Source: Flavobacteriaceae bacterium
GTDB taxonomy: Bacteria; Bacteroidota; Bacteroidia; Flavobacteriales; Flavobacteriaceae
Direction of reading: 5' to 3'
Assembly (NCBI GenBank): GCA_028825365.1
Contig: JAPKAF010000011.1
Span: 1-36,654, forward strand
DNA length: 36,654 nt
In this document: in pieces, positions 26,322-32,662 of the stretch
How the letters are laid out: each line of letters opens with the position of its first letter
Numbering within the stretch: position 1 is the first letter of the stretch
Translations under genes and position numbers: made by a program
The notes under the pieces: generated by a model
Told to the model about the DNA's origin: nothing
Seen by the model: only the letters and a program-made list of their open reading frames with translations
The model's database searches: none

Positions 26322-27665
26322 TTAATTAGATTCAATTTCAAAATCTTCCATAAATTTGGTTGTATAATTCCCTTCAATATATTTTGGATTATTCATTAAT
26401 TGTCTATGAAAAGGAATTGTTGTTTTAACTCCTTCAATAATAAACTCATTTAACGCTCTTTTCATTTTACTAATTGCTTCTTCTCTTGTTTGAGCGGTTG
26501 TAATTAATTTCGCTATCATAGAATCATAATTTGACGGGATAGTATAGCCGGCATAAACATGAGTATCTAGTCTAACTCCATGCCCACCTGGCAAGTGTAA
26601 GTTTGTAATTTTTCCTGGTGAGGGTCTAAAATTATTGAAAGGGTCTTCAGCATTAATTCGACATTCTATGGAATGTAATTGAGGGTAATAGTTTTTTCCG
26701 CTAATTTCAACTCCTGCAGCAACCAAAATTTGCTCTCTAATTAGGTCAAAATTAATCACTTGTTCTGTTATTGGGTGTTCTACTTGGATTCTTGTATTCA
26801 TTTCCATAAAGTAGAAATTTCTATTTTTATCTACTAAAAACTCTACCGTTCCAGCCCCTTCGTATTTAATAAATTCGGACGCTTTAACAGCAGCTTTTCC
26901 CATTTTCTCTCTTAATTCATCTGTCATAAAAGGGGATGGCACTTCTTCTGTAAGCTTTTGATGTCTTCTTTGTATTGAGCAGTCTCTTTCAGAAAGGTGG
27001 CATGCTTTTCCTTTTGAGTCTCCAATAATTTGTATTTCGATGTGTCTAGGTTCTTGAATTAACTTTTCCATGTACATGTCATCATTTCCAAATGCAGCTT
27101 TAGATTCCTGTCTGGCAGAATCCCAAGCGTCTTTAAGCTCTGACTCATCCATAACCGCTCTCATTCCTTTTCCACCGCCTCCAGCAGTTGCTTTAAGCAT
27201 AACCGGATAACCAGTAGTTTTTGCTGTCTTTTCACATTCAGCAAAGTCTTTAATGATTCCGTCGCTCCCTGGTACACATGGCACTCCTGCTGCTTTCATG
27301 GTTAATTTTGCAGTTGCTTTATCTCCCATTTTTGAAATCATATCAGATGATGCTCCAATAAATTTAATATCATGTTCCTCGCAAATTTTTGAGAATTTTG
27401 CATTTTCAGACAGAAAACCATATCCGGGATGAATCGCATCTGCATTAGTGATTTCTGCTGCTGCAATTATATTTGATATTTTTAAATAAGACTCACTACT
27501 AGGGGCTGGACCTATACAAACGGCTTCATCAGCAAATTTAACATGTATACTCTCCGCGTCTGTTACTGAATAAACAGCTACAGTTTTAATACCCATTTCT
27601 TTACAAGTTCTAATTATTCTAAGGGCTATTTCGCCCCTGTTCGCAATTAATATTTTTTTGAACAT
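26322..27665 (-). CDS. accC: Acetyl-CoA carboxylase biotin carboxylase subunit
   Basis: [56 protein letters not shown]. Confidence 0.98.
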
Positions 27666-27698: not shown

Positions 27699-28178
27699 TT
27701 AAGAGGGGTCTACTAAAAATAATGGCTGATCAAATTCAACAGGTGAAGCGTCATCTATTAAAATTTTGACTATTTTCCCTGTTACTTCGGATTCAATCTC
27801 ATTGAAGAGTTTCATAGCTTCAATAACACATAGCACATCGCCTTCTGAAATAGAAGAGCCTACTTCAACAAAATTTGATTTGTCGGGAGAAGGTTTTCTG
27901 TAAAAAGTTCCAATAATAGGGGACTTTACAGTTATATATTTTGAGTTTTCATCTTCTTCAACAACTGTATTATCATTTACTACAACGGGAGTTTGTTGCT
28001 CAATTATTGGGTTTTGAATAATTGATTGTTGATGTAACGGAAGGGCCTGAACAATTGTTTGCTTTTCGTTTTTTCCAGTCTTAATGGTGATTTTAATATC
28101 CTCCATTTCTAGTTTCACTTCATTTGCACCAGATTTTGCGACAAATTTTATTAAATTTTGAATGTCTTTAATGTCCAT
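27699..28178 (-). CDS. accB: Acetyl-CoA carboxylase biotin carboxyl carrier protein
   Basis: [24 protein letters not shown] and [10 protein letters not shown] biotinylation motif. Confidence 0.97.
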
Positions 28179-28200: not shown

Positions 28201-29199
28201 TTAATTATTATTATAACTCCACTTGAAATAAATAGAGCCCCATGAAAATCCACCTCCAAAAGCCGCAAATATGATATTATCTCCTTTTTTTAGTTTAGAC
28301 TCATAGTCATATAAAAGCAAAGGAATAGTAGCGGAGGTAGTATTTCCGTATTTTTCGATATTAAGCATAACCTGATCAGAAGATAGTTCAATTCTATTTG
28401 CTGTTGCGTCGATAATTCGTTGATTCGCCTGGTGTACTGCAAGCCATTGAACATCTTCTTTTTTTAGATTATTACGTTTTAAAATTTTTGTGGAAACATC
28501 TGCCATATTAAAAACAGCATTTTTAAAAACTGTTTTTCCGTCTTGTTTGATAAACTGCTGCTTGTTTTTTATTGCATGTTCATTTGTCGGGTGGCACGAA
28601 CCGCCAGACTTTACGCCTAGAAACTCTCTTCCTGAGCCGTCAGTTTTAAGGATTTCGTCTTGCATTCCTAAACCCTCAGTGTTTGGCTCGAACAAAACAG
28701 CTCCTGCTCCATCACCAAAAATTATACAGGTAGCGCGATCGGTATAGTCAATCATTGAGGAGTTTTTATCAGCCCCAATAAGTAGCACTTTTTTATAGAT
28801 TCCAGACTCTATATATCTTGCAGCTACAGACATTCCAAAAAGAAAACTAGAACACGCTGCGTCCATATCAAATGAAAACGCATTAATTGCTCCAATTTTA
28901 GATGCGGTATAAGATGCCGTAGAGGCTCCTTGCATATCTGGTGTTGCAGTTGCCACAATTACAAGGTCAATTGTTTTTGGGTCAACATTTTTTTTAGCTA
29001 ATAAATCTTTTGCTGCATTAATGGCAAGAAATGAAGAGCCTAACCCTTCGCCTTTTAGTATTCTTCTTTCTTTGATCCCTGTTCTTGAAACTATCCACTC
29101 ATCATTAGTCTCAACCATTGTTTCTAAATCTTTATTTGAGAGAATATGTTCTGGCACATATCCTCCAACAGCAGTTATAGTAGCATTTAATTTAGTCAT
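28201..29199 (-). CDS. fabH: 3-oxoacyl-ACP synthase III
   Basis: MTKLNATITAVGGYVPEHILSN, DMDAACSSFLFGM catalytic Cys, WLAVHQANQRIID, YGNTTSATIPL. Start trimmed to ATG at 29199. Confidence 0.96.
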   Translation of the reverse strand: MTKLNATITAVGGYVPEHILSNKDLETMVETNDEWIVSRTGIKERRILKGEGLGSSFLAINAAKDLLAKKNVDPKTIDLVIVATATPDMQGASTASYTASKIGAINAFSFDMDAACSSFLFGMSVAARYIESGIYKKVLLIGADKNSSMIDYTDRATCIIFGDGAGAVLFEPNTEGLGMQDEILKTDGSGREFLGVKSGGSCHPTNEHAIKNKQQFIKQDGKTVFKNAVFNMADVSTKILKRNNLKKEDVQWLAVHQANQRIIDATANRIELSSDQVMLNIEKYGNTTSATIPLLLYDYESKLKKGDNIIFAAFGGGFSWGSIYFKWSYNNN

Positions 29200-29215
29200 A
29201 GAAATTAACGTTAAA

Positions 29216-29246
29216 CAAATGTGAATAAAAAATATAAATAAAACAA
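29216..29246 (-). promoter_or_regulatory. Candidate fabH-accB-accC promoter (-33 TTG / -7 CACATTTG, 20-bp spacing)
   Basis: Minus strand: TTG (29246-29244), 20 bp, CACATTTG (29223-29216; one mismatch to TAnnTTTG), then fabH ATG at 29199. Confidence 0.55.
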
Positions 29247-29250
29247 GGAG

Positions 29251-29325
29251 AAAAAGGTTAAAAATGATCAAAAAACGCCCAAAAGCATCCAAAAATGGTT
29301 AAAAATGTCCAAAAATGGTTAAAAA
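29251..29325. repeat. Phased A-tract array (predicted intrinsically curved DNA) upstream of fabH
   Basis: A-runs on + strand at 29251-255, 260-264, 270-275, 281-284, 291-295, 301-305, 311-315, 321-325: successive spacing ~10 bp; includes direct repeat tccaaaaatggttaaaaa x2. Confidence 0.85.
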
Positions 29326-29340
29326 CCAATAAATTGCCAC

Positions 29341-29374
29341 AAAAAAAAACACTCAATAAATGAGTGTTTTTTTT
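29341..29374 (-). terminator. Rho-independent-type terminator after rpmF (palindromic, potentially bidirectional)
   Basis: AAAAAAAAACACTCA-ataaa-TGAGTGTTTTTTTT hairpin with A and T tracts, downstream of rpmF stop. Confidence 0.85.
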
Positions 29375-29393
29375 GTTAAGTAAGTTAAGAGTA

Positions 29394-29594
29394 CTAAGCT
29401 TCAGCTTCTTCTACTGAATTATCAATTAATACATTCCCTCTATAATATAATTTACCTTCGAACCAATGTGCTCTGTGGTATAAGTGAGCCTCACCAGTTG
29501 TAGGGCAAGTTGCGATCTGAGCTTCTGTAGCTTTGTAATGGGTTCTTCTCTTATCTCTTCTTGTTTTTGAGATTTTTCTTTTAGGATGAGCCAT
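29394..29594 (-). CDS. rpmF: 50S ribosomal protein L32
   Basis: [22 protein letters not shown]. Confidence 0.97.
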
Positions 29595-29603
29595 AATTCT
29601 TTT

Positions 29604-30140
29604 TTATTTATCAGTTACTATTTCTTTTAATTTTTCCCAACGAGGGTCTATTTCTCCTTTGTCTGTTGAAATGTTTACTTTTGGACTTAATTCATTTAAT
29701 TTATCCAGTATATCAGATTTTAATGTTCCGTCAAGTACGCCTGGATGAATTCTTTTTTGAGGTATAGAAAGAGTTATAAGTTCATATATAAGTTGCTCAA
29801 CATTAAGTTTGTGCACTTTATGAGGTAAAATTAATACTTCTTCATTCTCATTATTAAATTCTTGTCCAAATTTTACAACTATATCAAAACTGTTATTAAC
29901 ACTCTGTTTAAAGAGCTCATTGGTAATGTCACAATTAATATCAACAGTACCTTTAGATTCTAAATTTAATTCTAATAATGTCGTTTTCTTAACAAGTTTA
30001 ACCTTAACAACAGCGTTGATGTCGTTAAAATCAATAAAATCAATATTCTGAAAGAACGTATTTTCAATATTGTACTCAAAATCATGAAGACCTAACTTTA
30101 GTCCAACAAATTCAATATCGAAATCTTTATTAGGCTTCAT
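29604..30140 (-). CDS. DUF177 (YceD-family) protein
   Basis: Directly upstream of rpmF; VDINCDITNELF and C-terminal DPRWEKLKEI pattern. Confidence 0.85.
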   Translation of the reverse strand: MKPNKDFDIEFVGLKLGLHDFEYNIENTFFQNIDFIDFNDINAVVKVKLVKKTTLLELNLESKGTVDINCDITNELFKQSVNNSFDIVVKFGQEFNNENEEVLILPHKVHKLNVEQLIYELITLSIPQKRIHPGVLDGTLKSDILDKLNELSPKVNISTDKGEIDPRWEKLKEIVTDK

Positions 30141-31317: not shown

Positions 31318-31905
31318 ATGTTTACAGGAATAATTGAAAGTATAGGGGTTGTGAAGGCAATAAATCACGATAAATCAAATATTAATTTTTGTATAAGCAG
31401 TGATTTAATTAGCGAATTAAAAGTAGATCAAAGCATTTCTCACAATGGTGTTTGCTTGACTGTCGTAAATCTTGAAAAAGACTCCTACACGGTAACTGCA
31501 ATTAAAGAAACGCTTGATAAAACTAACCTTGGAAAACTTAAATTAGGGGATCAGCTAAACTTAGAGAGGTGTTTAAAGGTTGGTGACAGGCTGGATGGGC
31601 ATTTTGTTCAGGGGCATGTAGATCAAATAGCAACCTGCGTTAATGTTGATAATGAAAATGGGAGCTGGGTCTTTACTTTCAAGTATAGCCCACTAAACAA
31701 CAACATTACTATTGAGAAAGGATCAATAACCGTTAATGGGGTTAGCCTTACTGTTGTAAACTCAAAAGAATCTGAGTTTAGCGTTGCTATAATTCCATAT
31801 ACTTTTGACAATACTAATTTTAATAGCTTTAAAGCTGGAACATTGGTTAACCTAGAGTTTGATGTCTTTGGAAAATACATCACAAAACTATATTCAAAAA
31901 AGTAA
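31318..31905 (+). CDS. ribE: Riboflavin synthase alpha subunit
   Basis: MFTGIIESIGVV, SISHNGVCLTVV, LDGHFVQGHVD, GSITVNGVSLTVV. Confidence 0.96.
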   Translation: MFTGIIESIGVVKAINHDKSNINFCISSDLISELKVDQSISHNGVCLTVVNLEKDSYTVTAIKETLDKTNLGKLKLGDQLNLERCLKVGDRLDGHFVQGHVDQIATCVNVDNENGSWVFTFKYSPLNNNITIEKGSITVNGVSLTVVNSKESEFSVAIIPYTFDNTNFNSFKAGTLVNLEFDVFGKYITKLYSKK

Positions 31906-31918
31906 TTTGTAGTTTTAT

Positions 31919-32004
31919 AAAAAACCTAAAAAAAGGCTAAAAAGCTTAAAAAATTGAATAAAACAGCTTAAAATGAGCGTAAAAAATGAAAAAATAGCAA
32001 AAAA
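31919..32004. repeat. Second phased A-tract array (predicted intrinsically curved DNA) between ribE and DUF2911 gene
   Basis: A-runs at 31919-924, 928-934, 939-943, 948-953, 960-963, 970-973, 981-986, 989-994 and 31999-32004: nine tracts at ~8-12 bp, mean ~10 bp. Confidence 0.85.
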
Positions 32005-32104
32005 TAGGATTTTTTCTTTTTACAATATTTGCTCATTAATTCTTATTTATTCTTGCCTACTTTTGTATAGTTACTAATTATGAACTTCTAAATAAAATTT
32101 TGAA

Positions 32105-32112
32105 TATCTTTG
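32105..32112 (+). promoter_or_regulatory. Candidate -7 element (TATCTTTG) for DUF2911 gene
   Basis: Exact TAnnTTTG 13 bp before ATG; an alternative exact match TACTTTTG lies at 32058-32065; neither has an ideal -33. Confidence 0.4.
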
Positions 32113-32125
32113 AAATAAAAAAATT

Positions 32126-32662
32126 ATGAAATATATCAAATACACATTTATCGCTTTATTAATTGCTGTTATAGCTTTTTTCTCATACGGAATGTTGTTT
32201 CCTTCTAGCCCAGGTGGAATCGTGAGTTTTAACGCTGATAATACTACTTTTGAAGTAGAGTATAGCAGACCATATAAAAAAGGGAGATTAATTTTCGGAA
32301 ACGAATCTGATGGTGCACTTGTGCCTTATGCTAAATACTGGAGAACTGGAGCTAATGCTGCTACGACATTTTCAACTAGTGAAGACGTTAGTTTTGGAGG
32401 AGAGCTAGTAAAGGCAGGGAAATACAGTCTTTATACAATTCCAGGTAAAGATTCGTGGATTATTGCCCTTAATTCTGTTAATGATACTTTTTTTGCTATA
32501 GCTGAAGCTGACCAGGCTAATGATGTGTTAAGAGTAACTCAAAACAGTTCTGAGGTTACAGATGTTGTTGAGCAATTTACTATTGACTTTAGTAATGATT
32601 CTATCTCAAGTTATATGAACTTAAAGTGGGACAAAACACTTGTTTCTATCCCATTAAAATAA
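32126..32662 (+). CDS. DUF2911 domain-containing protein
   Basis: VEYSRPYKKGRLIFG, PYAKYWRTGANAATTFSTSEDVSFGGELVKAGKYSLYTIPG. Confidence 0.93.
   Translation: MKYIKYTFIALLIAVIAFFSYGMLFPSSPGGIVSFNADNTTFEVEYSRPYKKGRLIFGNESDGALVPYAKYWRTGANAATTFSTSEDVSFGGELVKAGKYSLYTIPGKDSWIIALNSVNDTFFAIAEADQANDVLRVTQNSSEVTDVVEQFTIDFSNDSISSYMNLKWDKTLVSIPLK

Follow-up and report, generated by a model that had tools for sequence, protein, structure and literature searches.

The 36,654-bp stretch of DNA analyzed here (the window), from a marine member of the Flavobacteriaceae, contains an array of A-tracts, repeated once per helical turn, upstream of the putative promoter of the fatty-acid synthesis genes fabH-accB-accC. 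Phasing of the tracts, predicted curvature, conservation of the curvature in most of the sampled Flavobacteriaceae, and a rotational lock of the bend to a putative -7 box were all computed from the sequences. Judging from the sequence, the array is probably a curved structural promoter element for fabH-accB-accC, whose bend would aid initiation, and such an element is most likely conserved across much of the sampled Flavobacteriaceae. We infer the use of the putative box as the start site, an effect of the curvature on transcription, the sign of that effect (activation), and the partner.

The window, contig 21, was taken from a 1.43-Mb assembly, 73% complete, of a Flavobacteriaceae genus sampled as five species, two others of which are the uncultured Flavobacteriaceae FRAM18_bin211 and AG-313-E13. 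The genes fabH (3-oxoacyl-ACP synthase III; 28201..29199; Pfam ACP_syn_III and ACP_syn_III_C), accB (biotin carboxyl carrier protein; 27699..28178; Biotin_lipoyl) and accC (biotin carboxylase; 26322..27665; Biotin_carb_N, CPSase_L_D2 and Biotin_carb_C) all lie on the minus strand, with gaps of 22 bp between fabH and accB and 33 bp between accB and accC. Upstream of fabH on the same strand is rpmF (ribosomal protein L32; 29394..29594; Ribosomal_L32p), and the array, referred to as array 1, is located inside the 194-bp gap between the two genes. Because rpmF ends in an intrinsic-terminator-like hairpin (29342..29374, minus strand, from the sequence and its predicted fold), which is followed by a T run and lies between rpmF and array 1, fabH probably requires a promoter of its own. 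A search of positions 29000-29700 against Rfam at a permissive threshold returned only weak, implausible matches, all under the gathering scores. A link to the replication origin was also considered, and the fabH coordinates were seen to vary among single-contig genomes. A scan of viral contigs for FabH found no relative.

A candidate for this promoter had been proposed in the preliminary description, namely a minus-strand TTG at 29244..29246 as the -33 element, 20 bp from a -7-like box, CACATTTG, at 29216..29223. Both positions and the 20-bp spacing were confirmed, and the candidate gains support from the other species: the TTG is retained in all five, 19-20 bp from the box, and either CACATTTG or CACTTTTG is found at -24 from the ATG in each of them. 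For Flavobacterium psychrophilum, the published sigma-A box reads TAnnTTTG and spans -12 to -5, and leaders have a median length of 24 nt (PMC9723704). CACATTTG is one letter off this Flavobacterium sigma-A consensus, the window's genus having CAnnTTTG. Measured by the F. psychrophilum ruler, the putative fabH start would be near 29211, giving a leader of 12 nt.

Array 1 (29251..29325) consists of eight phased A-tracts with A on the plus strand, so that on the coding strand of fabH the tracts are T-runs, as had been noted. The eight A-runs were found exactly where they had been described, starting at 29251, 29260, 29270, 29281, 29291, 29301, 29311 and 29321, and both reported copies of tccaaaaatggttaaaaa are present, 20 bp apart. 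The array does lie beyond the TTG, at a distance of 4 bp rather than the 5 bp originally given. The count of eight also proved incomplete: two further in-phase tracts (29227-29232 and 29240-29243, within 29227..29243 on the minus strand) reach into the promoter spacer, and the full chain comprises ten A-tracts from 29227 to 29325 with a mean spacing of 10.39 bp. Tandem Repeats Finder (TRF) reported a period-20 array spanning exactly 29251-29325. When phasing was compared with shuffled sequence, as the preliminary description had recommended, none of 2000 dinucleotide shuffles equalled the array in phase score or in chain length. When the tracts were retained and the spacers randomly re-partitioned, none of 5000 trials reached the phase score and one reached the chain length, and in shuffles of the whole window the longest chain never exceeded five. 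The A-tracts therefore recur at the helical period beyond chance, a property of curved-DNA promoter elements. A pattern of five A4 tracts stepped by 10 bp was matched exactly at only two places in the whole assembly, array 1 and a second array, array 2 (31918..32007, plus strand, with A on the plus strand), directly downstream of ribE. The earlier observation was thus confirmed as real and as understated.

Curvature was predicted with three models (Bolshoy wedge, roll/tilt and AA-wedge), and by all three, array 1 was found to be strongly curved, arrays 1 and 2 ranking as the top two sites in the window. With the Bolshoy wedge model, the curvature was 172 degrees per 75 bp for array 1 and 179 degrees per 75 bp for array 2, these absolute angles being in model units set by the wedge, roll/tilt and twist values used. 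When the same model was applied to about 560 readable kb of the assembly, sampled by stretches and excluding short contigs that read as N, the arrays held the first two places and the next site reached 135 degrees. As a model prediction, then, the curvature of array 1 is strong relative to other genomic DNA, as in a curved-DNA promoter element.

Both arrays were detected in all five species of the genus, one between rpmF and fabH and the other after ribE, and in every sampled set, ranging from 10 kb in one species to about 560 kb in that of the window, they were the two most curved sites. The repeat units are different, being aaccatttttgg in the window and gactcttttt in one sister species. In array 1 of three close sister species, 4 of 54 columns were variable in the tracts vs 17 of 46 in the spacers (Fisher p=0.0004), with zero indels across the 100 bp compared. 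The tracts change more slowly than the spacers among these three species.

Across the family, 102 rpmF-fabH regions of Flavobacteriaceae, mostly from genomes with the closest FabH, gave a median curvature of 159 degrees per 75 bp and a median z of 4.9, with z>2 in 94% of them; the corresponding values for 87 control intergenic regions of similar length were a median of 72-73 degrees and z of about 0. A model-free spectrum of AAA/TTT positions in the rpmF-fabH regions rose to 5.9 times the shuffled level at 10.25-10.5 bp, and the control regions ranged from 0.9 to 1.25 between 9 and 12.5 bp (about 1.1 at 10.25-10.5). An equal 10-bp periodicity in composition-matched shuffles had been named beforehand as evidence against the array, and the shuffles did not show it. 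A comparison of related fabH upstream regions, for which the preliminary description had suggested an alignment, revealed a family-wide conservation that had been missed there, the curvature being kept in most of about 100 genomes. In 17 of 20 loci of 5 kb, the strongest bend was at the rpmF-fabH gap, and among four genomes of other genera sampled over 100 kb each, fabH clearly topped all sites in two and did not in the other two. An extreme array was found directly before fabH in a small Flavobacteriaceae genome, G008 (locus L267, G008:C12:66303-67300), at 222 degrees per 75 bp and with the exact tract pattern; it is possibly an independent expansion.

The feature is not universal. In five genomes of a single Flavobacteriaceae genus, g53 (L291-L295), the rpmF-fabH order is kept and curvature is absent from the gap (z <=0.9), which makes this genus a natural negative control; two more family members likewise lack the feature (z 0.5 and 1.2). 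Among 36 fabH upstream regions from outside the family, where fabH is often not behind rpmF and where order- and phylum-level members were few, z never exceeded 2.4 and curvature never exceeded 123. Since g53 and the genomes outside the family do without it, the curve is no general requirement for the expression of fabH.

The direction of the bend was found to follow the putative -7 box. In a first set of regions (n=39; the window's genus, Lutibacter, Lutimonas, Aureibaculum, Tenacibaculum and others), a -7-like box (TTACTTTG, TACTTTTG, CACATTTG or similar) is located 24-82 bp before the ATG. The bend is centred about 57 bp farther upstream than this box (interquartile range 54-64). A fixed distance from the curvature centre to the ATG was considered and rejected, because the centre moves with the box. 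With box patterns picked by eye from the same regions as those analyzed, and with the box itself omitted from the sum, the bend directions agreed at R 0.91 in the frame of the box, and at 0.43 and 0.44 in the frames of the ATG and the rpmF stop. These sequences are related, and nominal probabilities overstate their independence. This caveat is answered in part by thinning the set to 13 divergent sequences, which gave R 0.88 (box), 0.38 (ATG) and 0.23 (rpmF stop), and in part by the window's genus, whose tracts are composed differently. Between 36 and 90 bp upstream of the box, that genus has T-runs alone on the coding strand and the other first-set genera have a mixture of A- and T-runs; the mean direction is -67 degrees in both. 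The regions are nonetheless partly homologous (about 50% identity when aligned on the box, 0.32 when shuffled), so that the locking is partly inherited. In first-set genera other than the window's, part of the bend comes from the runs of the rpmF terminator. The -7 box bears a T-run as well and could itself belong to the array.

A second set (n=49; Winogradskyella, Algibacter, Bizionia, Lacinutrix and others) has its candidate box, TTAATTTG, near -100, with the curve on the downstream side of the box. The bend is again locked (R 0.84) and faces the same side as in the first set (-77 vs -70 degrees), the lock being less discriminating here, with a nearly constant spacing from box to ATG (ATG 0.59, rpmF stop 0.67). 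Relative to the putative box, the helical phase is thus fixed in both sets, as in a curved-DNA promoter element. The DNA upstream of ordinary intergenic TAnnTTTG boxes, from the five genomes of the genus and from family samples, shows only a weak tendency to bend in a similar direction (R 0.21-0.23, p 0.002-0.03), and coding controls point in other directions. The fabH promoter therefore has the appearance of an extreme instance of a mild rule.

At the level of sequence, the original suggestion of intrinsic curvature linked to the fabH-accB-accC promoter has strong support from the three models, the roughly 100 genomes and the lock to the -7 box. The UP-like element or nucleoid-protein site that had also been suggested is a hypothetical reading. 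In the proposed mechanism, A-tracts placed once per turn would bend the DNA that precedes the -7 box, out to about 110 bp, the bend being strong, planar and directed to one fixed side of the promoter. Upstream DNA would thereby be presented to RNA polymerase, through wrapping, contacts with the alpha-CTD, or both, and initiation would be favored. A single HU/IHF-family protein may assist the bending, and transcription of fabH-accB-accC would be raised or tuned as a result. An alpha-CTD was found in four of the five genomes of the genus, which are incomplete, and one HU/IHF-family protein per genome in all five species. The curve downstream of the box in the second clade is at odds with a simple upstream-element model.

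Curved promoters are already known, and the aspect of interest here is a direction that is conserved despite changing letters and a changing side of the box. In Escherichia coli, activation of glpFK by an A-tract bend at the 3' end of IS5 depends on the correct helical phase and falls with mutation of the tracts (PMC2753651). In-phase A-tracts are located upstream of the promoter in that system (PMC2753651) as in the present one. However, the IS5 bend is transposon-borne and helped by IHF, whereas array 1 is native and family-conserved, belongs to a putative Bacteroidota sigma-A promoter, and may affect transcription. Judging by title, Jauregui et al. 2003 and Kozobay-Avraham et al. 2006, both cited in PMC4060949, are said to describe curvature conserved upstream of orthologous prokaryotic genes. 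As far as titles allow comparison, those studies and the present one share the retention of curvature rather than letters in regulatory regions; here, a single operon is followed, the direction is referred to a -7 box, the mixture of A- and T-runs varies, and the curve shifts from upstream to downstream. The UP element is an A+T-rich site for the alpha-CTD that lies ahead of core promoters in bacteria. Array 1 resembles it in having A/T tracts upstream of the -35/-33 region, but extends over about eight helical turns, far longer than an UP element, and alpha-CTD contact would be hypothetical in this case. At Shigella virF, promoter curvature bears on regulation in a manner dependent on H-NS. 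The likeness to virF lies in the promoter curvature and the difference in H-NS (PF00816), for which zero matches were found in the five genomes of the genus, 64-82% complete, so that H-NS-bound curved DNA is not indicated. Literature searches for a curved promoter in Flavobacterium or at fabH returned no matching description.

What else could account for such arrays? They may be sites for a nucleoid-associated or bent-DNA-binding protein, either of the HU/IHF family or an unknown minor-groove binder, which would serve chromosome organisation, or repression or insulation of the promoter, with an indirect link to RNA polymerase. The HU/IHF-family gene in all five genomes would fit this reading, as would array 2, present 2.6 kb away in all five species, and a curve that lies upstream or downstream of the box depending on the clade. 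Against it, the -7 box rather than the ATG or the rpmF stop sets the direction of the bend, a lock that would be needless for pure packaging; H-NS is without a match in the genus, and in the Flavobacteriaceae read outside the genus, no comparable array directly follows ribE. We regard this explanation as rather unlikely. Far more improbable, and already disfavored, is a neutral by-product of replication slippage, in which a 10/20-bp unit expanded in a very AT-rich genome and whole-unit duplication kept the register. The units do look locally homogenised (an 18-mer occurs twice, gactcttttt is repeated in a sister species, and the TRF period is 20), and the longest arrays are those of small AT-rich genomes, namely the window's genus and G008. 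However, the bend is conserved and box-locked in most sampled genera, where there is no obvious tandem repeat, tracts are conserved over spacers with zero indels among the three sisters, and the genome, equally AT-rich elsewhere, contains nothing comparable.

Very little weight can be given to an action of the tracts in RNA, as U-rich repeats in the fabH leader (in the second clade) or behind the rpmF transcript, with effects on translation, pausing or termination. In the second clade, the tracts come after the candidate box at about -100 and before the ATG and hence would be transcribed, but the array of the window's genus is upstream of the putative start site, the variable mixture of A- and T-runs outside the genus would change the RNA while leaving the DNA bend, and Rfam offered no plausible match. 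A cluster of 10-bp sites bound by some sequence-specific regulator of lipid synthesis is scarcely credible. In its favor, the repeated units in the window share a similar core; yet units differ between the arrays, between species of the genus and in G008 (aaccatttttgg, gactcttttt, catttttacc), so that the unit of a sequence-specific operator array is not conserved between copies or species, and the T-run and spacing alone persist.

With array 1 read as a curved promoter element, it is possible, though we suggest this tentatively, that selection keeps promoter geometry and not sequence: a bend toward one face of the -7 box, built from varied mixtures of A- and T-runs and shifted upstream or downstream, as if the DNA were pre-wrapped on RNA polymerase. 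The same tentative suggestion extends to a possible thermometer. A-tract bending weakens with warmth, and such a promoter could therefore also serve cold-water bacteria as a thermometer that controls fatty-acid synthesis without a protein, a further and speculative step. To our knowledge, Bacteroidota promoters have been little studied. In a central-pathway promoter, curvature, face and distance to a putative -7 box can now be traced through about a hundred natural variants, which opens the old question of bend direction as a promoter signal to direct test. What A-tract periodicity does in bacterial chromosomes has been called unclear (PMC3940949).

Array 2 was absent from the preliminary description. 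It was considered as a conserved partner of array 1 outside the genus, and this idea was dropped, since the other Flavobacteriaceae that were read contain no array directly after ribE. In 5-kb loci of several other genera, weaker secondary curvature peaks were observed 20-400 bp beyond ribE. Relative to nearby weak boxes, the phase of array 2 is -95 to -114 degrees in four species of the genus, and the window disagrees. A gene for an SGNH-type hydrolase, an assignment that is a reading of the open frame (18166-18930 of L177 in the sister locus), follows ribE in four species of the genus. Its frame begins in or just after array 2, as read fully in one species and by sequence in three. In the window, where 31905-32126 contains no SGNH-type hydrolase gene after ribE, array 2 remains and DUF2911 comes next.
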